A stretch of 50,636 nucleotides of DNA from Roseburia sp. Lineage in GTDB: Bacteria > Bacillota > Clostridia > Lachnospirales > Lachnospiraceae. Where the stretch lies: assembly GCA_017549185.1 (NCBI GenBank), contig JAFYVJ010000030.1, positions 1 to 50,636 of the forward strand, in the 5' to 3' direction. The notes below the pieces were generated by a model. The model saw nothing but the letters and a program-made list of their open reading frames with translations. It was not told the origin of the DNA and ran no database searches. A program made the translations under genes and the position numbers. This document shows, piece after piece, positions 40,587-47,932 of this stretch. Each line of letters begins with the position of its first letter. The first letter of the stretch is position 1.

Positions 40587-41261
40587 CTATATTTTGTTTG
40601 CTCTTAACTTTTCATTTTTTTCTTCTACATTCAAGAATGAAAGAATCATTGTAATAAGTAAATCAATGATGAATGGAAGCCATAAATACATGAAGTGCAT
40701 CATATTGATACAGCTTTCCGGCTGTATAGATGCATCTCCATTTACAAATCCGCTCAAAGTAAGCATCCAGCCCGAAATCGCAGTACCAATACCACTACCA
40801 ATTTTTACACCTAATGACGTATAGGAGTACATAGAACCTTCAATTTTCTTTCCTTTTGTAAGGTATGTATATTCAGCACATATCGCGATAACTGCATTCA
40901 ACAATGTGTAAGCAATAAAGAACCACGCATACTGTGCAACCTGTCCGATATCTGTCGGAATAGCAAAAATTGCAAATAAGGTTACAGCACATCCAAAGAA
41001 ACCATAAAACATCCATGGTCTCGCTTTACCCATTTTGCTCTTTGTTCTATCAATTATTGCCCCAAAGAACACATCTGTTACAGCATCGAGTAATTTTGAA
41101 ATAGCAATCAAAGTACCTACAATACCTGCATCTAAACCAATTGAATTCGTTAAATAAATCATTACGAAGAATGTTAAAAATGCATATACTACATTCCCCG
41201 CGATGTCGCCTGATCCGTAACCAACTATGTTATACCACTTCAAATACTTTTTCTCTGTCGT
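40587..41261 (-). pseudogene. Internally deleted GPH-family sugar:cation symporter
   Basis: Full GPH (MelB-like) symporters have 450-480 residues and 12 helices. Here helices 1-4 (with SKLLDAVTDVFFGAIIDRT and KMGKARPWM) run directly into the last quarter of the family, beginning ICAEYTYLTKGKKIEGSMYS, near residue 118 (about 40890). About 230 codons are missing without loss of frame. The usual start also looks lost: after AAGGAG the fifth base onward reads ACG ACA GAG AAA where ATG would be expected, leaving TTG 41243 as the first usable codon. A promoter at 41313-41340 is intact. It is probably non-functional. Spacer 40409-40586 shows no other gene. Confidence 0.8.
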
Positions 41262-41523: not shown

Positions 41524-42465
41524 TTATTCTAACTCTCTTTTTAATCTCAATATGTTGCTTTCGATTTCGGCAATAATCAATCTAAAATCTTTATCTTCTT
41601 TTCCAGTTGGATCTTCTAACCCCCAATTATCATCAAATGCCCTGCCAATAAATGGGCAACCTACATTACAACCCATAGAAATTGCCACATCTGGATTCGG
41701 AATATCTGTAATCAATTTTGAATACTGTGTCTGTTCCATATCAATTCCATATAACTCTTTCATAATTCGGACTGCATCTTGATTGATTTGTGGTTTTGTT
41801 TCTGTTCCTGCCGAAAAAGACTCAAAAACATCAGATGCTAAGTACTTCCCGAGTGCCTCTGCGATCTGACTTCGACAAGAATTATGCACACAGATAAATG
41901 CTACTTTTTTCTTTGTTTTCTTATAAAATGGACATTTTTCTGTGATACATTGCTCATTCTTATCACTAAATCTACATTCAATTCTACTACTCTCTAATTT
42001 CACATTGTAATTTTCATTTATATGCTCGATTGCTTTTTGAAAACTCAAAAATGCATCTCTTTTACAGCATCTTGGTCCACCCACTTGTGATAAACTACCT
42101 AATGCTTTGGATGTAAACTCCATATGCTTTCCCCATGAATCATCTGTACTTAAAGGGCCTGTCCCATCAATAATCGATAGTGCTGCTCCCATAGAACTTA
42201 CAGCTCCACATACACCCCACATACCACATGTTGCACCTGGCATTTGCAATCCTCTTTTCATGAGTTCATTCAAACTATTCTGCAAATCCATTTTACCACC
42301 TGCATTATAAAAAGCAGTCAAAACGGCAGCTCCATCCAATATATGGTGTTCTGGTCCATGCATTCTAATAAAATCCATTTGAGCTATATTACAAAAAATC
42401 TGTATTGGATTTTTACTTTTTTCCCGTAAACACGCTTCAATAATTTTCTTTGCTCTTTCTTCCAT
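41524..42465 (-). CDS. DUF5714-arsenate reductase fusion protein, copy 1
   Basis: The N-terminal part (about 1-180) matches the uncharacterised DUF5714 domain, with HGPEHH at 36-41, ATCGMWGVCG (Cys80, Cys86), GGPRCCKR (Cys133, Cys134) and a Cys cluster at 164, 173 and 178. The C-terminal part (about 187-313) is a thioredoxin-type ArsC/low-molecular-weight phosphatase. Its P loop is Cys192-VHNSC-Arg198, with redox Cys266 and Cys270 in MGCNVGC and the DPTGK motif. It would reduce arsenate to arsenite, with DUF5714 probably binding metal through its cysteines. It is two bases from its ArsR gene. About 85% identical by eye to copy 2. Confidence 0.88.
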   Translation of the reverse strand: MEERAKKIIEACLREKSKNPIQIFCNIAQMDFIRMHGPEHHILDGAAVLTAFYNAGGKMDLQNSLNELMKRGLQMPGATCGMWGVCGAVSSMGAALSIIDGTGPLSTDDSWGKHMEFTSKALGSLSQVGGPRCCKRDAFLSFQKAIEHINENYNVKLESSRIECRFSDKNEQCITEKCPFYKKTKKKVAFICVHNSCRSQIAEALGKYLASDVFESFSAGTETKPQINQDAVRIMKELYGIDMEQTQYSKLITDIPNPDVAISMGCNVGCPFIGRAFDDNWGLEDPTGKEDKDFRLIIAEIESNILRLKRELE

Positions 42466-42467
42466 GA

Positions 42468-42743
42468 TTATACTACCTTTCCAACAAAACTTATGAAATT
42501 ATTAAACTCCTTCCATACTTCTGCATTTATAGAATAATAATGCCATTTTCCTTCTTTTCTATCATTTATAAGACCACAATCACACAAAATATTCATATGA
42601 TGTGATAAAGTTGGTTGTGTAATATCAAAAGCCTCCAATAACTTACAACCACATTTTTCTCCACTAGATAACATTTGAACAATCTTCAAACGATTACTAT
42701 CTCCAAGTGCTTTACATATAGCTACAATATCTATCGTAATCAT
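42468..42743 (-). CDS. arsR: ArsR-family metalloid-sensing repressor, copy 1
   Basis: A 91-residue winged-helix repressor. Cys31 and Cys33 in EKCGCKLL sit in the alpha-3 position used by As(III)/Sb(III) sensors; extra cysteines are at 54 and 56 (ILCDCGL). The DNA-binding helix is TQPTLSHHM. ATG 42743 is nine bases after GAGG; GTG 42749 is too close. It forms an operon with the DUF5714-ArsC gene and probably binds the TATCTATGT repeats at its own promoter. Confidence 0.93.
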   Translation of the reverse strand: MITIDIVAICKALGDSNRLKIVQMLSSGEKCGCKLLEAFDITQPTLSHHMNILCDCGLINDRKEGKWHYYSINAEVWKEFNNFISFVGKVV

Positions 42744-42767
42744 TTTCACTTACCTCACATCGACACA

Positions 42768-42813
42768 TATCTATGTATAAAATATATATATCTTAAATAT
42801 AGATACTTGTCAA
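42768..42813 (-). promoter_or_regulatory. ArsR promoter and candidate operator, copy 1
   Basis: On the minus strand TTGACA (42808-42813), 17 bases and TATATA (42785-42790). TATCTATGT (42768-42776, plus strand) and an inverted ATATAGATA (42797-42805) flank the -10. The same pair occurs in the promoter of copy 2. Confidence 0.65.
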
Positions 42814-43167
42814 TGTATGTATATCTGCTTCTAAATATCCTAGAACCCCATACTGTTCTGCAAAGTAATTCGCACTTCTACATCTTACATTTATTTCAAT
42901 CTTTTCGATTTCAGGGTATATAATTTGACGGAAGTTTGCATTAAAGAGGTACAGTTCTACAAGTTGCTCAAACGTAACCTTGTCCACATAGTCCCCGTTC
43001 TTAGGCTTTAGGTTTAAACTATATGCTTTAATTAACCTAAAATACGATATGTCATTTAGTATTCTTTTCGCATACTCCTCATCTTCGACAATCAATCCTA
43101 TACTCTTAAGATTTTCTACTTGTTCATCAATTGTCATAGGAGGCTGATGCTGCTTAAGTTCTCCCAT
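42793..43167 (-). pseudogene. Truncated Abi_2/AbiF-family abortive-infection gene
   Basis: The 124-residue frame matches the N-terminal third of Abi_2 (AbiD/AbiF) proteins: PPMTIDEQVENLKSIGL, ILNDISYFRLIKAYSL, and KVTFEQLVELYLFNANFR leading to KIEINVRCRSANYF. Full proteins have about 300 residues with HEPN RNase-type motifs. After GYLEAD the frame runs straight into the promoter of arsR copy 1 and stops, so about 180 residues are gone. The ribosome binding site AAGGAG and an upstream structured RNA survive. It is presumably inactive. Confidence 0.8.
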
Positions 43168-43184
43168 ACAATATTCTCCTTAAA

Positions 43185-43238
43185 ACAAAAAGACCCAACA
43201 TGGTCCGCATCGTTGAGAGGCGTGTTGGGTTCTATTGA
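43185..43238 (-). ncRNA. Structured RNA upstream of the Abi gene (AbiF-RNA-like)
   Basis: Transcription from TATAAT (43244-43249) would begin near 43237. The RNA folds as ACCCAACA with TGTTGGGT (43193-43200 and 43223-43230) around a GC-rich loop containing CGCCTCTCAACGATGCGG and ends in TCTTTTT, so it can also terminate. From memory, Abi_2/AbiF genes carry a conserved small RNA in this position. The match is by position and shape only; no covariance search was possible. Confidence 0.6.
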
Positions 43239-43243
43239 CTTCT

Positions 43244-43271
43244 ATTATATTCATTCCCATAAAAAATACAA
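43244..43271 (-). promoter_or_regulatory. Promoter of the AbiF-type RNA
   Basis: On the minus strand TTGTAT (43266-43271), 16 bases and a perfect TATAAT (43244-43249). Confidence 0.65.
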
Positions 43272-43490
43272 CAACTTGAGGTCATTTTTTAGACCTTATA
43301 AGTAAACTTTTCACTTTATGGGCAATAATTTTCATTTTCTTGCCATTTCATGACCTCAAAACATATAGATTCATAATTGTACTTCCCAAAAACTCTTGTC
43401 CATAGATTTTGGTGCTATTTTTACATGTGTTTTTTGTAGTGCCCAAAAGTGTACTTTTTGAAACCACCTCCTAAAAAATCGGCATAAAAA
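43272..43490. other. Gene-free AT-rich spacer upstream of the Abi RNA
   Basis: No coding region is credible. GAGGTCAT (about 43278-43285) occurs inverted as ATGACCTC (about 43349-43356), and AGGTC/GACCT make a short hairpin near 43279-43298. Function unknown. Confidence 0.4.
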
Positions 43491-43528
43491 ATAGCCATTA
43501 CAGAGAATTTAATCTCCATAATGGCTAT
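43491..43528 (-). terminator. Terminator of the GNAT gene
   Basis: ATAGCCATTA (43491-43500) pairs with TAATGGCTAT (43519-43528). On the minus strand it is followed by TTTTTT. Confidence 0.82.
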
Positions 43529-43578
43529 GTGTATTTATTCAATTATTATTTTAAATAAAATCAAAACCCAAAGGCTTG

Positions 43579-43602
43579 ATCTGTTCGACGATATTGGAAT
43601 TT
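43579..43602 (-). repeat. 24-base gene-end repeat, copy A
   Basis: ATCTGTTCGACGATATTGG followed by AATTT lies just after the GNAT stop. It matches 44113-44136 (after the second DUF5714-ArsC stop) at all but about four positions. Confidence 0.6.
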
Positions 43603-43603
43603 G

Positions 43604-44086
43604 TCAATCAGTAAGACGCAAATAATAATAGTCATTTCCTTCCATGACATTTGTTTTCTTAAAGCCATGTCGTAAATAAAAGCGTTCTGCTTGAATATTA
43701 TCCTTATGGCATCCCAAGGCAATAGGACGTTTGCCAAAATCACGATAAACAAGTTGTATCGCCGTTTCCAATATCTCTCCGCCAATTCCACAACCACGAT
43801 ACTTTTTATCAACCACAAAGCCCATCAACCGATAAAATGGCTCTTTTCTCATTTCCGGTGGGTCTGTTTCCCAAGGAATTGCCTCTCCCAAAAGAATGAG
43901 GCCAATCGAATTCTCATTACACTTCACGACAAAGGTATGTCCAATACAATGATGTTCAATTCCATAATCAGTAATGTCCATTATAGTTGAAGCTGTATCT
44001 ACAAAACTCTCTGATATGTCATCTCTATCAATTTTGCACGCATCTGAAAAATTCTGATGTGTCAATTCTTCAAATATCAAATTCAT
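43604..44086 (-). CDS. GNAT-family N-acetyltransferase
   Basis: A single-domain acetyl-CoA-dependent N-acetyltransferase of 160 residues. The acetyl-CoA loop is KKYRGCGIGGEILETAI (R/QxxGxG/A) at about 98-114, followed by the family ending ERFYLRHGFKKT. ATG 44086 follows GAGG; the frame extends four codons upstream. The substrate is unknown. It lies between the Abi RNA region and the second DUF5714-ArsC gene, with similar 24-base sequences at both ends. Confidence 0.9.
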   Translation of the reverse strand: MNLIFEELTHQNFSDACKIDRDDISESFVDTASTIMDITDYGIEHHCIGHTFVVKCNENSIGLILLGEAIPWETDPPEMRKEPFYRLMGFVVDKKYRGCGIGGEILETAIQLVYRDFGKRPIALGCHKDNIQAERFYLRHGFKKTNVMEGNDYYYLRLTD

Positions 44087-44112
44087 AATCAACCTCACAA
44101 ATTCAATTTTTT

Positions 44113-44136
44113 ATCTCTTCGACGAAATTGGAAGTT
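44113..44136 (-). repeat. 24-base gene-end repeat, copy B
   Basis: ATCTCTTCGACGAAATTGG followed by AAGTT lies ten bases after the copy 2 DUF5714-ArsC stop and before the GNAT start. It is the diverged partner of 43579-43602. Confidence 0.6.
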
Positions 44137-44145
44137 TGGAGTGCT

Positions 44146-45087
44146 TTACATCAATTCGTTTCTTAACTGCAAAACCTTACTTTCAATTTCTCTAATCACT
44201 ATTTTAAATTCTTCATCCAATTTTCCAGTAGGATCTTCCAATCCCCAATTATCATCAAATGCTCTACTAATGAAAGGACATCCAACATTACACCCCATTG
44301 AAATTGCCACATCTGGACTTGGAATATCCGAAACTAGTTTTGAATACTGTGTCTGTTCCATGTCAATTCCATATAACTCTTTCATGATACGAACTGCATC
44401 TTGATTGATTTGAGGCTTTGTTTCTGTTCCTGCTGAAAAGGATTCAAAAACATCGGATGCAAAATGCTTTCCTAATGCTTCTGCAATCTGACTGCGGCAA
44501 GAATTATGCACACATATAAATGCTACCTTTTTCTTCGTCTTTTTATAAAATGGACATCTTTCTTTGATACACTGCTCGTTTTTTTCACTAAAACAACATT
44601 CAATTCTGCTACTTTCTAATTCCACATTGTAGTTCTCATTTATATATTCGATTGCTTTTTGAAAACTCAAAAATGCATCTCTTTTACAACATCTCGGTCC
44701 ACCTACTTGCGATAAGCTACATAAAGCTTTCGATGTAAACTCCATGTGTTTTCCCCATGAAGAATCCAAACTCAATGGTCCTGTGCCATCAATAATAGAT
44801 AGTGCTGCTCCTATAGAACTCACAGCACCACAAACACCCCACATACCACAAGTTGCCCCAGGCATTTGTAATCCTCTTTTCATAAGTTCATGCAAACTTG
44901 TCTGTAATTCCATTTTACCACCTGCATTGTAATAAGCAGTAAGCAATGCAGGCCCATCTAACACATGATGCTCTGGTCCATGTATTCTTACAAAATCCAT
45001 ATGTGCTATATTATAAAAAATATCTAGGAGATTTTTACTTTTTTCCTGCAAACAGGCTTCAACTATTTTCTTTGCTCTTTCTTTCAT
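44146..45087 (-). CDS. DUF5714-arsenate reductase fusion protein, copy 2
   Basis: Same 313-residue architecture as copy 1: DUF5714 (about 1-180) joined to a thioredoxin-type ArsC domain. All key residues are kept, including the P loop Cys192-VHNSC-Arg198, Cys266 and Cys270, and the paired Cys of GGPRCCKR. Two cysteines are gained (ALCSL for ALGSL, and ECCFS for ECRFS) and one is lost near residue 25. The ArsC core is nearly identical to copy 1, while the last 25 residues have diverged most. It lies two bases from its own ArsR gene. Confidence 0.88.
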   Translation of the reverse strand: MKERAKKIVEACLQEKSKNLLDIFYNIAHMDFVRIHGPEHHVLDGPALLTAYYNAGGKMELQTSLHELMKRGLQMPGATCGMWGVCGAVSSIGAALSIIDGTGPLSLDSSWGKHMEFTSKALCSLSQVGGPRCCKRDAFLSFQKAIEYINENYNVELESSRIECCFSEKNEQCIKERCPFYKKTKKKVAFICVHNSCRSQIAEALGKHFASDVFESFSAGTETKPQINQDAVRIMKELYGIDMEQTQYSKLVSDIPSPDVAISMGCNVGCPFISRAFDDNWGLEDPTGKLDEEFKIVIREIESKVLQLRNELM

Positions 45088-45089
45088 AA

Positions 45090-45365
45090 TTACTCCACCT
45101 TTCCAACTAAACTTATAAACTCATTGAATTGCTTCCATACATCTATATTTAAAGAATAATGGTGCCATTTTCCTTCTTTCCTGTCATTCACAAGACCACA
45201 TTCACACAAAATCTTCATGTGATGCGATAATGTTGGTTGCGTAATTTCAAAGGCTTCCAATAATTTACAACCGCATTTTTCCCCATCTGACAGCATTTGA
45301 ACAATCTGCAAACGGTTACTATCTCCAAGCGCTTTACATATAACTGCTATATCTATTGTATTCAT
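45090..45365 (-). CDS. arsR: ArsR-family metalloid-sensing repressor, copy 2
   Basis: A 91-residue repressor nearly identical in plan to copy 1, with Cys31 and Cys33 in EKCGCKLL, TQPTLSHHM as recognition helix and CECGLV near residue 54. GAGG precedes ATG 45365 by nine bases. The promoter and operator lie at 45390-45431. Its DNA-binding helix is the same as in copy 1, so the two repressors probably act on both promoters. Confidence 0.93.
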   Translation of the reverse strand: MNTIDIAVICKALGDSNRLQIVQMLSDGEKCGCKLLEAFEITQPTLSHHMKILCECGLVNDRKEGKWHHYSLNIDVWKQFNEFISLVGKVE

Positions 45366-45389
45366 TTCTCTTTACCTCATATTGATGTT

Positions 45390-45431
45390 TATCTATGTAT
45401 AAAACATATCAGACACATAGATAATTGCCAA
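45390..45431 (-). promoter_or_regulatory. ArsR promoter and candidate operator, copy 2
   Basis: On the minus strand TTGGCA (45426-45431), 17 bases and TATGTT (45403-45408). A perfect 9-base inverted repeat, TATCTATGT (45390-45398) with ACATAGATA (45415-45423), spans the promoter, a good ArsR operator candidate. Similarity to the copy 1 promoter ends near 45438, where the IS21 element begins. Confidence 0.7.
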
Positions 45432-45604
45432 TGTGTATTGAATAATCCGGAGTGAAATCCATCACCTGTCCGGCACATGGAAATCACTAATCCGTTTTGT
45501 TGGAAATCGCGATTCCGTTAAAAAGGAAATCGCGTTATCTATAAAAAACTTATAATGAGACTATGCACCATCTGGTGTAAATCCATTATAAGGAGGTCAC
45601 TATT

Positions 45605-47149
45605 ATGACCAAGTACCGAGAAATCATACGCCTCACGGGCATGGGATTCTCTCAACGCGATATCATGGCAAGCTGTGGTGTCGCTCAAAAAACTGTTGTA
45701 AAGGTTCAGAAACGTGCCAAAGAATTAAATCTTTCATGGCCACTTGATGAAACTTTGACAGACATTGAGCTCCAAAAACTCATGTTCTCTAAGGAGAGCA
45801 AGGTATCGCCTAACAAGCGTATGCCTGATTACAATTACATCCACAAGGAACTTCTTCGTAACGGCGTAAGCAAAAAACTCCTGTGGACAGAATACATGGA
45901 AGATTGCCGTGCTAACGGCGATGAGCCACTCATGTATTCCCAGTTCTGCTATTACATTCAGCAAGATGAGCAGAAACGCCGTGCAACTATGCATATCAAG
46001 CGAAAACCGGGTGAACAGGTTGAAGTCGATTGGGCAGGTGATACTACAACAATCATTGACCCGGATACCGGTGAAATCATTAAAGCTTACATATTCGTAG
46101 GTGTAATGACTTACAGCCAGTATGCCTATGTAGAGGCCTTTCTGGATATGAAGCAGAAATCATGGATTAATGCTCATGTCCATATGTATGAATTTTTTGG
46201 CGGGGTTGCCAAGATTCTTGTACCTGATAACTGTAAAACAGCAGTTATTCACAATGGTAGTTGGAAAGACCAGCAGATTAACGAAACTTATCAGGAAATG
46301 GCTGAACACTACAGAACTGCAATAATTCCGGCACGTGTCAGATCTCCAAAAGACAAGCCGAATGCTGAAGGAACGGTAGGAAATATCTCTACTTGGATTA
46401 CGGCAGCACTTCGGGATGAACAGTTCTTCTCCCTTGCCGAGTTAAACCGGGCAATCAGAGACAAACTTGAACTGTTCAACCAAAGGCTCTTTCAGAAGAA
46501 AGAAGGTAGTCGGCTCAGTTTGTTTCTTGGGGAAGAACTTCCATTGCTGGCACCATTACCTGCTACCCGTTTTGAACTGGCAGACTGGAAAACAGCCACC
46601 GTTCAGTTCAATTATCACATATCAGTGGACGGAATGCTATACTCAGTTCCGTTTGAATACATCAAAAAGAAAGTTGATGTAAGGGTAACAGATTACACGA
46701 TTGAGATTTTTTACAACCATAACCGCATTGCTTCCCATCACCGTCTGAAAGGGCGTGCCGGGCAGTACAGCACCATCACAGAGCATATGCCGGAAGACCA
46801 CCAGAAATATCTGGAGTGGAACGGCGACCGTTTCCGTAAATGGGCTGAGCGGATTGGCATAAATACGTACACTGCGGTCAATGCGATACTGACCTCCAAA
46901 GGAGTGGAACAACAGACCTATCGGAGCTGCATGGGGCTTCTGAAGCTTGCTGAGAAGTACTCAGATGCAATGCTGGAAGCTGCCTGTAAAAAGGCATTGT
47001 CCTATACAGCATCTCCAAGTTACAAGAGTATTAAAAACATCCTTGTAACCAGTTCTGAAAAGTTAGCATCAGAAATAACTGATACTGATACCAAGACCAC
47101 ACACAAAGCACGCGGCATCACAAGAGGTGCCGATTACTATCGGAGGTAA
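45605..47149 (+). CDS. istA: IS21-family transposase IstA
   Basis: IstA is the DDE transposase. The 514-residue protein has an N-terminal helix-turn-helix (SQRDIMASCGVAQKTVVKV), the catalytic core with Asp in VDWAGD, Asp in VPDNCK and Glu in KPNAEGTVGN, and a C-terminal beta-rich DNA-contact region. AAGGAGG precedes ATG 45605. The GC content and codon use are visibly higher than in the neighbouring arsR genes. Intact, so the element may still be active. Confidence 0.95.
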   Translation: MTKYREIIRLTGMGFSQRDIMASCGVAQKTVVKVQKRAKELNLSWPLDETLTDIELQKLMFSKESKVSPNKRMPDYNYIHKELLRNGVSKKLLWTEYMEDCRANGDEPLMYSQFCYYIQQDEQKRRATMHIKRKPGEQVEVDWAGDTTTIIDPDTGEIIKAYIFVGVMTYSQYAYVEAFLDMKQKSWINAHVHMYEFFGGVAKILVPDNCKTAVIHNGSWKDQQINETYQEMAEHYRTAIIPARVRSPKDKPNAEGTVGNISTWITAALRDEQFFSLAELNRAIRDKLELFNQRLFQKKEGSRLSLFLGEELPLLAPLPATRFELADWKTATVQFNYHISVDGMLYSVPFEYIKKKVDVRVTDYTIEIFYNHNRIASHHRLKGRAGQYSTITEHMPEDHQKYLEWNGDRFRKWAERIGINTYTAVNAILTSKGVEQQTYRSCMGLLKLAEKYSDAMLEAACKKALSYTASPSYKSIKNILVTSSEKLASEITDTDTKTTHKARGITRGADYYRR

Positions 47150-47155
47150 ATATAT

Positions 47156-47932
47156 ATGACGAATCAGAGTACTATTGATAAATTAATTGAAATGCGTCTG
47201 ACAGCTATGGCAGATGCATTTCGCAACCAGCTTGATGATCCTAAATTTAAGGAAGTTCCTTTTGAAGATAGATTCGGTATGCTGGTGGATATCGAATTCA
47301 GCAGCCGTAAAAACAACCGTCTGAAAAGACTGATTCATAACGCTGGATTCGACCAGCCGGAAGCCAGTATTATGGATATCAACTATACTTCCGGACGCAA
47401 GCTCAACAGGGAGCTGATTAACAGACTTGCCACTTGCGAGTATATAACTGAACACCGGAATCTTTTTATTACCGGTGCAACAGGCTGTGGTAAAACGTAC
47501 ATGGCTTGTGCCTTTGGCATGGAAGCTTGTAAACAGTATTTCAACACCAAATATGTCCGTCTTCCGGATCTGCTCATTGATCTGGAAATAGCAAGGACAG
47601 AAGGTAATTATCGTAAAGTCATGTCTAAATATGCTAATCCATTGGGTCTTGTACTGGATGAATGGCTCCTATTGAAACCTACTGAGTCGGAACAAAAAGA
47701 TATCTTTGAACTGCTCCATAGGAGACGCAAGAAGTCAACCACGATTTTCTGCTCCCAGTATGAGTTCGAGGAATGGTACGATCAGCTTGGTGGTGACGCC
47801 AGTCCTCTAGCAGATGCCATTATCGACCGTATCGCTCATGACAGTTATCGTATCAACATCACAAGTATTGATGCTGAACATGACATATCCATGCGCGAGG
47901 TGTATGGCTTAGACAAAGCATTGCGCGAGTAA
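47156..47932 (+). CDS. istB: IS21-family AAA+ helper ATPase IstB
   Basis: IstB is a DnaC/DnaA-like AAA+ ATPase that directs the transposase to target DNA. The 258-residue protein has Walker A GATGCGKTYMACAF near 108 and Walker B LVLDEW near 161, with a C-terminal region of the usual length. It starts six bases after istA. Confidence 0.95.
   Translation: MTNQSTIDKLIEMRLTAMADAFRNQLDDPKFKEVPFEDRFGMLVDIEFSSRKNNRLKRLIHNAGFDQPEASIMDINYTSGRKLNRELINRLATCEYITEHRNLFITGATGCGKTYMACAFGMEACKQYFNTKYVRLPDLLIDLEIARTEGNYRKVMSKYANPLGLVLDEWLLLKPTESEQKDIFELLHRRRKKSTTIFCSQYEFEEWYDQLGGDASPLADAIIDRIAHDSYRINITSIDAEHDISMREVYGLDKALRE

Follow-up and report, generated by a model that had tools for sequence, protein, structure and literature searches.

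Two ArsR-linked units encoding a DUF5714–ArsC fusion in Roseburia sp. and a candidate role of DUF5714 in arsenite handling

Two ArsR and DUF5714–ArsC units in the window

The stretch of DNA analysed here (the window; 50,636 nucleotides, positions 1 to 50,636 of contig JAFYVJ010000030.1 in the Roseburia sp. assembly GCA_017549185.1) carries two copies of a two-gene unit, in which an ArsR-type repressor gene is followed by a gene that joins DUF5714, a domain of unknown function, to a putative arsenate reductase (ArsC) in one polypeptide. Both units lie on the minus strand and are transcribed in the order operator-promoter 2 (45375..45435), ArsR2 (45090..45365), fusion copy 2 (44146..45087), a GNAT gene, an Abi_2 fragment, operator-promoter 1 (42753..42816), ArsR1 (42468..42743) and fusion copy 1 (41524..42465). 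The two fusions share one orientation, with 2622 bases from start to start, and each encodes 313 amino acids (aa), comprising DUF5714 at residues 8-181 (44545-45066 in copy 2, 41923-42444 in copy 1), a linker of six residues, and an LMWPc/ArsC domain that runs from residue 188 to residue 308 in copy 2 (44164-44526) and to residue 304 in copy 1 (41554-41904). The listed open reading frame (ORF) of ArsR1, 42468-42749, opens at a GTG at 42749; alignment with other ArsR proteins makes the ATG at 42743 the likelier start, and this start is used here.

Both halves of the fusion score above the Pfam cut-offs in both copies. Specifically, DUF5714 (PF18978) reaches 214 bits in copy 1 and 207.5 bits in copy 2 against a cut-off of 26.2, the match spanning profile positions 1-173 of 173, and LMWPc reaches 48.6 and 47 bits against 23.2, with its CX5R P loop present. 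The P loop C192-VHNSC-R198 and the cysteine pair C266/C270 (copy 1 numbering) are intact in both copies, as the first-pass annotation had read them, and both fusion ORFs are free of internal TGA. Additionally, ArsR1 and ArsR2 score 93.9 and 92.8 bits with the ArsR/SmtB model NF033788 (cut-off 55), and ArsR2, an ArsR/SmtB metalloregulator of 91 aa, matches Pfam HTH_5 at 60.4 bits. Both repressors carry a CGC motif at the place where E. coli ArsR has CVC.

The fusion copies are identical at 267 of 313 residues (46 differ) and at 83.7% of bases, corresponding to a divergence of about 16%, and the two ArsR proteins are identical at 74 of 91 residues, in line with the earlier estimate by eye of about 85% identity between pairs lying 2.6 kb apart. 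The base differences between the fusion copies are distributed 30/17/107 over the three codon positions, mostly the third, and the nonsynonymous (dN, 0.084) and synonymous (dS, 0.853) divergences give a dN/dS of about 0.1; both copies have therefore evolved under purifying selection.

The first-pass annotation called the pair “duplicated”; a recent tandem duplication is not established, and the copies are not nearest relatives in the trees. Copy 1 groups with a fusion gene from another locus (L024:2-922) in the full-length tree (98/94), and copy 2 groups with the same gene in the DUF5714 tree (97/84); copies 1 and 2 as sisters are not rejected (p 0.30). The L024 gene, found in a metagenome-assembled genome (MAG) named Kiritimatiellae, is a mosaic near both copies, with a copy-2-like DUF5714 and a copy-1-like end, hinting at recombination among such fusion genes. 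A clean crossover between copies 1 and 2 was considered as its origin and dropped, the site pattern being that of a mosaic.

Recurrence of the fusion, its operator and its genomic setting

The same join is found in other genomes. A genome scan found 157 relatives, of which the best 80 loci were kept; DUF5714 and ArsC share one reading frame in 30 of these 80 (ArsC is truncated in L054, and some frames end at a contig edge), and in nine further loci the two halves are separate genes side by side (L052, whose DUF5714 is short, L056, L060-L065 and L069). In Lachnospira eligens ATCC 27750, where the split pair is carried by the large plasmid, ArsR is followed by DUF5714 and then by a low-molecular-weight phosphatase gene that overlaps the DUF5714 gene by 8 bases, so that a small indel would suffice to fuse them. 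A sequencing or assembly artefact, or a decaying gene pair, would fit the MAG-like source assembly (2.31 Mb in 78 contigs, 70% complete) and the truncated domains of L052 and L054; however, the recurrence of the in-frame fusion and the low dN/dS between copies, whose 16% divergence itself makes an assembly artefact unlikely, leave this explanation with hardly any probability.

The fused DUF5714 domains belong to two distant lineages, a short type, which is that of the window, and a long type found in eight loci, which has approximately 50-65 additional N-terminal residues as judged from mechanically assigned ORF starts. Long-type DUF5714 is 42-45% and short-type DUF5714 66-88% identical to that of copy 1, and the long-type ArsC domains are mostly 80-91% identical to the ArsC of copy 1 (60% in L053). 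Forcing all fused DUF5714 domains into a single clade is rejected (p 0.0001; 32 of 58 rows), and the trees therefore indicate that similar ArsC enzymes gained DUF5714 on at least two occasions. A third separate fusion, in L053, is suggested by the tree (p 0.12). Within the short type, one clade of the 24 fused rows is also rejected (p 0.034), and splitting or fusing thus seems to have continued there. The ArsC tree, with 128 columns, is too poorly resolved for counting fusions. In a wider sample, DUF5714 exceeds its cut-off in 50 of 398 genomes of the phylum, and record titles of the relatives include many ruminant gut metagenomes and some human gut isolates. No relative was found in viral contigs, the 12 matching phage records holding ArsC-like pieces only; an ArsC-like protein of Blautia phage NatCom_24097 (PV036434.1 23443-23814) shares 66% identity with the ArsC half of the window. 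Another type of ArsC fusion is seen at L078:2922-4022, where one reading frame of 366 aa holds both ArsR and ArsC.

The 5' regions of 14 ArsR genes, taken from fused, split and classical loci, share a promoter with an interrupted palindrome (ACATTGACA..TATCTATGTAT .. ATACATAGATA..TATCAATGTGAGG). An nhmmer model trained on 11 other loci, the window excluded, was run against 1.93 Mb consisting of all loci L003-L216, training loci included, and the window. It recovers the operator upstream of ArsR2, where a -35-like TTGGCA lies within the palindrome (E 2.5e-12), and that of unit 1, which has a -35-like TTGACA and the same interrupted palindrome (E 1.3e-7). Every match with E < 0.001 lies upstream of an ArsR gene, and the operator is also present at classical ArsR-ArsP-Trx3-ArsC loci (L066, L072, L073, L079, L092, L094 and others). 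A scan of the source genome with a strict exact pattern gave 0 matches, missed the two window sites as well, and is uninformative.

ArsR adjoining the fusion is nevertheless a minority arrangement. Searched by tblastn with the window's ArsR alone, which a different regulator would escape, an adjacent ArsR was found in five of 25 other fused loci (those, out of 32 other fused reading frames, for which 399 or more upstream bases were available), one of the five being a partial match, and in none of the eight long-type loci; most relatives therefore either lack the window's ArsR control or have another control. The first-pass annotation had described the module as seemingly complete in one polypeptide plus a repressor. 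The ArsR pairing holds in the window, but the arrangement is not general, since an adjacent ArsR is missing from 20 of those 25 fused loci and a C_GCAxxG_C_C gene comes next in some loci.

No further DUF5714 is present in the source assembly beyond the two window copies, and within the genus any DUF5714 was found in 2 of 62 genomes, namely that of the window and one with a fragment; the unit therefore counts as an accessory trait, and one probably acquired by horizontal transfer. Its surroundings consist of a GNAT acetyltransferase gene between the two units (43604-44098, minus strand), an Abi_2 gene fragment (42793-43167, minus strand; profile positions 1-78 of 184) whose end falls inside the unit 1 operator, a partial MFS_2 transporter of 218 aa beyond copy 1 (40587-41243), and an IS21-type istA/istB pair adjoining ArsR2 on the opposite strand (45605-47932). 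With the Abi_2 fragment and the partial MFS_2 around unit 1, the region appears recombined, and the istA/istB pair may have helped the import of the units. GNAT genes also lie beside or near DUF5714 in L012, L013 and L069; as GNATs are common, this is possibly chance.

The ArsC half, missing pump genes and the DUF5714 family

The ArsC half of the fusion is 75-87% identical to the ArsC of 37 loci that hold ArsC without DUF5714 (ArsC-only loci), the highest value being with the classical ArsR-ArsP-Trx3-ArsC locus L066, and the best solved relative of copy 1 is an ArsC, 2cd7 (E 1.3e-15, residues 185-308). Its scores with TIGR02691, the model of thioredoxin-type pI258 ArsC, are 57.8 and 58.4 bits against a cut-off of 174.3, and the half is therefore named an ArsC of the LMWPc fold rather than a pI258 equivalog. 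Its redox pair is CX3C, whereas that of pI258 ArsC is CX6C. The LMWPc label, the scores below the arsenate reductase cut-off and the deviating redox pair could together point to a different oxyanion, or protein phosphotyrosine, as the substrate of this half, with ArsR sensing something else; but the identity to ArsC proteins of which many lie beside ArsP, Thioredoxin_3 (Trx3) or ACR3, the same operator, and best solved relatives that are arsenate reductases make such a substrate very unlikely. Because the operator is shared with classical operons and ArsC identity to them reaches 87%, arsenate is the likely substrate. We judge it very likely that this half is a clostridial ars-type arsenate reductase and that the cassette is induced by arsenic.

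Distinct from the ArsC-only loci, of which 21 of 37 carry ArsP, Thioredoxin_3 or ACR3, none of the 40 loci with DUF5714 and ArsC holds ArsP_1, Thioredoxin_3 or ACR3 (p 3e-9), ArsB not having been searched, and the efflux gene of an ars operon was thus not found among them. Leaving out an ACR3 match of 30% identity in L097 gives 20/37 versus 0/40 (p 1e-8). Since locus ends might bias the counts, only loci with 2.5 kb on each side were then kept and identical ArsC were removed, which gives 0/24 versus 8/17 (p 0.0003). Thioredoxin_3 alone occurs in 17 of the 37 ArsC-only loci and in none of the 40. In the window, the scanned genes adjoining the units (GNAT, Abi_2, the MFS_2 fragment and IS21) include no ArsP_1 or ACR3, with ArsB again outside the search.

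The difference extends to whole genomes. Counted over the entire genome, ArsP_1 is present in 2 of the 27 genomes with the fusion (the window's own, plus genomes representing 26 of the 30 fused loci) and in 16 of the 28 ArsC-only genomes (covering 28 of the 37 loci; p 0.0001); as ArsP lies in 10 of these 28 loci, the contrast is weaker against ArsC-only genomes whose locus is ArsP-free (2/27 versus 6/18, p 0.045). The whole-genome ACR3 search covered the fused genomes alone. There, SBF matches (E 0.001) occur in 16 of 27, 12 of them over the cut-off, with a maximum of 41.3 bits over about half of the profile, compared with 118.7 bits for the ACR3-type gene in L092. Because these matches are weak and partial, and the four of 24 places checked are Mem_trans carriers (79.7-118.8 bits), they were rejected as ACR3 and none was counted. 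An aquaporin is present in just 3 of the 27 fused genomes and was likewise set aside as an arsenite exit.

In DUF5714 itself, C80, C86, C133, C134, C164, C173, N170 and E39-H40-H41 are invariant in 58 of 58 sequences, and H36 and C178 in all 57 sequences that have a letter there. Across 24 diverse sequences, 28 columns are invariant, including seven cysteines and the motifs HGPEHH and GPRCCKR. The window fusions give no match to the C_GCAxxG_C_C family (PF09719; Pfam cut-off 27 bits) at E 0.1; by hhalign, however, the two families align with a probability of 89% (E 2.6e-7), compared with no more than 0.2% for any of six unrelated families used as controls; the probability is 43% with shallower alignments, and 81% and 51% when split by type. 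PF18978 weakly matches C_GCAxxG_C_C proteins (L017, L018), and PF09719 weakly matches two MbdU-type DUF5714 domains (22.6 and 19.5 of 27 bits), in each case below the cut-off. The profile comparisons thus identify DUF5714 as a distant homologue of C_GCAxxG_C_C.

C_GCAxxG_C_C differs from DUF5714 in being shorter, in having fewer conserved cysteines and in not being seen fused to ArsC here; like DUF5714, it occurs in ars operons. In particular, a C_GCAxxG_C_C gene directly follows DUF5714 or its ArsC fusion in four of the 40 loci and in L055 (L030:2093-2530, L035:6966-7403, L039:6948-7391, L055:6579-7025 and L063:6936-7379), and lies between ArsR and ArsP in four of the 37 ArsC-only loci (L077, L080, L081 and L083, the last three with identical ArsC). 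Neither an operator nor an ars gene accompanies the C_GCAxxG_C_C gene of the window's genome (L225) within the 3.4 kb examined, and no link of the family to arsenic is evident from the titles of papers on it.

A further DUF5714 protein is MbdU, a metal-binding double selenoprotein (NCBIfam NF045648) listed in PMC13188914. The window fusions score 97.5 and 93.7 bits with its model against a cut-off of 600. The sole example over the cut-off (L104) contains a DUF5714 domain of 178.6 bits, and by eye its seven cysteines are kept; MbdU differs in having GCENAW or a similar sequence in place of HGPEHH, a Cys-rich N-terminal region carrying a CU motif, and DUF2284 at the C-terminus, with no ArsC. The CC of DUF5714 was rejected as the selenocysteine site of MbdU: U falls within the N-terminal CU motif, and every sequence read has cysteine throughout the CCC of the domain. 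At L189:2355-11583, an MbdU-type DUF5714 with an in-frame TGA, placed as in L106, belongs to an island that also encodes ACR3, ArsP, Trx3 and two ArsR proteins.

Outside the ArsC loci, 40 DUF5714 loci (9-14.5 kb each) were set against 20 control regions drawn from the same set of genomes, and arsenic genes were found near DUF5714 in nine of the 40 and in none of the controls (p 0.023). Seven of the nine have an ArsM-like gene, and two have ACR3 and ArsR, one of them also ArsP and Trx3. Six of the ArsM-like clusters (L169, L170, L172, L173, L174 and L175) all contain a radical SAM/SPASM-cluster gene, and five of them a Trx/TrxR-cluster gene, which adjoins DUF5714 in four (L169, L172, L173 and L175), so that a thiol reductant is supplied there already. 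Their six ArsM-like proteins have two aligned cysteines in common with annotated ArsM, the third lying two columns off that of ArsM; the seventh (L183) is a weak match and adjoins a TrsS radical SAM gene. The combination of ArsM-like, radical SAM/SPASM, Trx/TrxR and DUF5714 genes is a candidate anaerobic organoarsenic or natural-product pathway. On a Paraclostridium plasmid, DUF5714 lies beside arsM and arsR.

Candidate functions and comparison with known systems

We propose that the unit would act as an arsenic-inducible arsenate detoxification cassette. ArsR would occupy the palindromic promoter and leave it when arsenite binds the CGC cysteines, the C-terminal ArsC half would reduce arsenate with C192 as nucleophile and C266/C270 as redox pair, and the N-terminal DUF5714 half would take over or process the arsenite at a site formed by C80, C86, C133-C134, C164, C173 and C178 together with the HGPEHH histidines. 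Toxic arsenite would thus be held on thiolates or on a metal-thiolate centre, and would not simply pass to a pump encoded nearby. Three activities in this scheme are inferred, namely arsenate reduction by ArsC, arsenite sensing by ArsR and arsenite binding by DUF5714. The earlier suggestion that DUF5714 handles the arsenic product gains indirect support from the at least two joins, the arsenic-gene neighbours in some loci, the kinship with C_GCAxxG_C_C and the seven invariant cysteines. We tentatively favour arsenite binding or processing as the role of DUF5714, as the leading candidate at somewhat less than an even chance, because the join is recurrent, pump genes are absent, the ArsM-like neighbourhoods already have a thiol reductant, and a Cys/His set is conserved.

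Two other roles of DUF5714 have to be weighed against arsenite binding, and we rank both below it. The domain could be the dedicated reductant of ArsC, re-reducing the C266-C270 disulfide in place of Thioredoxin_3 while arsenite exits by an unrecognised route; its cysteines might then hold an iron-sulfur cluster, similar to ferredoxin:thioredoxin reductase. This would account for the distribution of Trx3, found in part of the ArsC-only loci and in none with DUF5714 and ArsC, it agrees with the Pfam label “putative redox-active” of the distant relative C_GCAxxG_C_C, and a fusion suits a one-to-one electron donor. However, HGPEHH and an invariant Asn are kept besides the cysteines, beyond the needs of a thiol relay, a Trx/TrxR-cluster gene already adjoins DUF5714 in the four ArsM-like clusters, and C_GCAxxG_C_C and Trx3 occur together in four ArsC-only loci (L077 and the three with identical ArsC). 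We regard the reductant role as the main rival, at a lower probability than arsenite binding. Less probable still, DUF5714 could be an enzyme that acts on arsenite in turn, with a thio- or organo-arsenical as a possible product, so that the fusion would channel arsenate towards a compound of lower toxicity with no efflux. The missing ArsP and ACR3 near the fusion, the 25 of 27 fused genomes without ArsP_1 and the six loci with ArsM-like, radical SAM/SPASM and Trx/TrxR genes would fit such an enzyme, as would the DUF2284 of MbdU, a domain also fused to an arsenite methyltransferase in NCBIfam NF041536. On the other hand, ArsM is found in none of the 40 loci with DUF5714 and ArsC, and no cofactor-binding motif was recognised in DUF5714, for which no dedicated search was made.

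Several observations weigh against arsenite binding or processing by DUF5714. Pump and thioredoxin genes are absent together, and the data cannot tell which of them DUF5714 replaces. ArsP_1 is missing from 12 of the 28 ArsC-only genomes as well, the efflux search took in ArsP_1, ACR3 and aquaporins but not ArsB, ArsK or unknown exits, and many fused genomes are MAGs, with completeness given only for the window's own. Away from ArsC, 31 of the 40 DUF5714 loci have none of the arsenic genes searched for, and an arsenic role can therefore not be extended to all DUF5714 proteins; among the nine loci that have such genes are close relatives (L169 and L173 are of one genus), so that p 0.023 is generous, and the ArsM-like protein of L172, the sole one of the clusters scored, falls under the NCBI cut-off (215.8 of 263 bits). 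Additionally, a sequence search for solved relatives found none for DUF5714 and only chance-level matches for C_GCAxxG_C_C. More broadly, DUF5714 and C_GCAxxG_C_C might form an unrecognised arsenic-handling superfamily of anaerobes, in which the ArsC fusion would be a pump-less enzyme that reduces arsenate and keeps or converts arsenite in one polypeptide, and the same domain would serve ArsM-like/radical SAM clusters and MbdU; we regard this as speculative and on balance doubtful.

The fusion gives DUF5714 a concrete question, namely whether arsenite is bound or transformed by it, and it may bear on the processing of dietary arsenic by gut anaerobes, because its relatives include many from ruminant gut metagenomes and some human gut isolates. 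The term DUF5714 was not found in the literature searched, no report of a DUF5714–ArsC fusion is among the matches listed for ArsC fusions, and the part of a paper on arsM in Clostridia that was consulted (PMC9213503) does not mention the family. ArsC fusions as such are already known, among them ArsC joined to AqpS in Salinispora tropica and ArsC joined to ArsR (Wu et al. 2010, cited from PMC6205960). As in the window, these join a small ArsC to another arsenic-related protein; they differ in that the partner is a channel or a repressor, whereas here it is a Cys-rich domain of unknown function. What seems new here is an ArsC partner that we did not find described, placed under ordinary ars control. 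The product of ArsC, arsenite, is usually described as being extruded by specific pumps (PMC9751042) or as leaving through a channel such as AqpS (PMC6205960). Among the closest known systems is the classical clostridial ars operon (ArsR, ArsP_1 permease, Thioredoxin_3 and ArsC), which has the same ArsR type, the same operator-promoter and an ArsC with up to 87% identity, but differs in its permease and thioredoxin genes, absent from the 40 loci with DUF5714 and ArsC. Taken together, the unit resembles an ArsC cassette under an ordinary ars operator that has a conserved Cys/His domain where its sister operons have genes for a pump and a thioredoxin.

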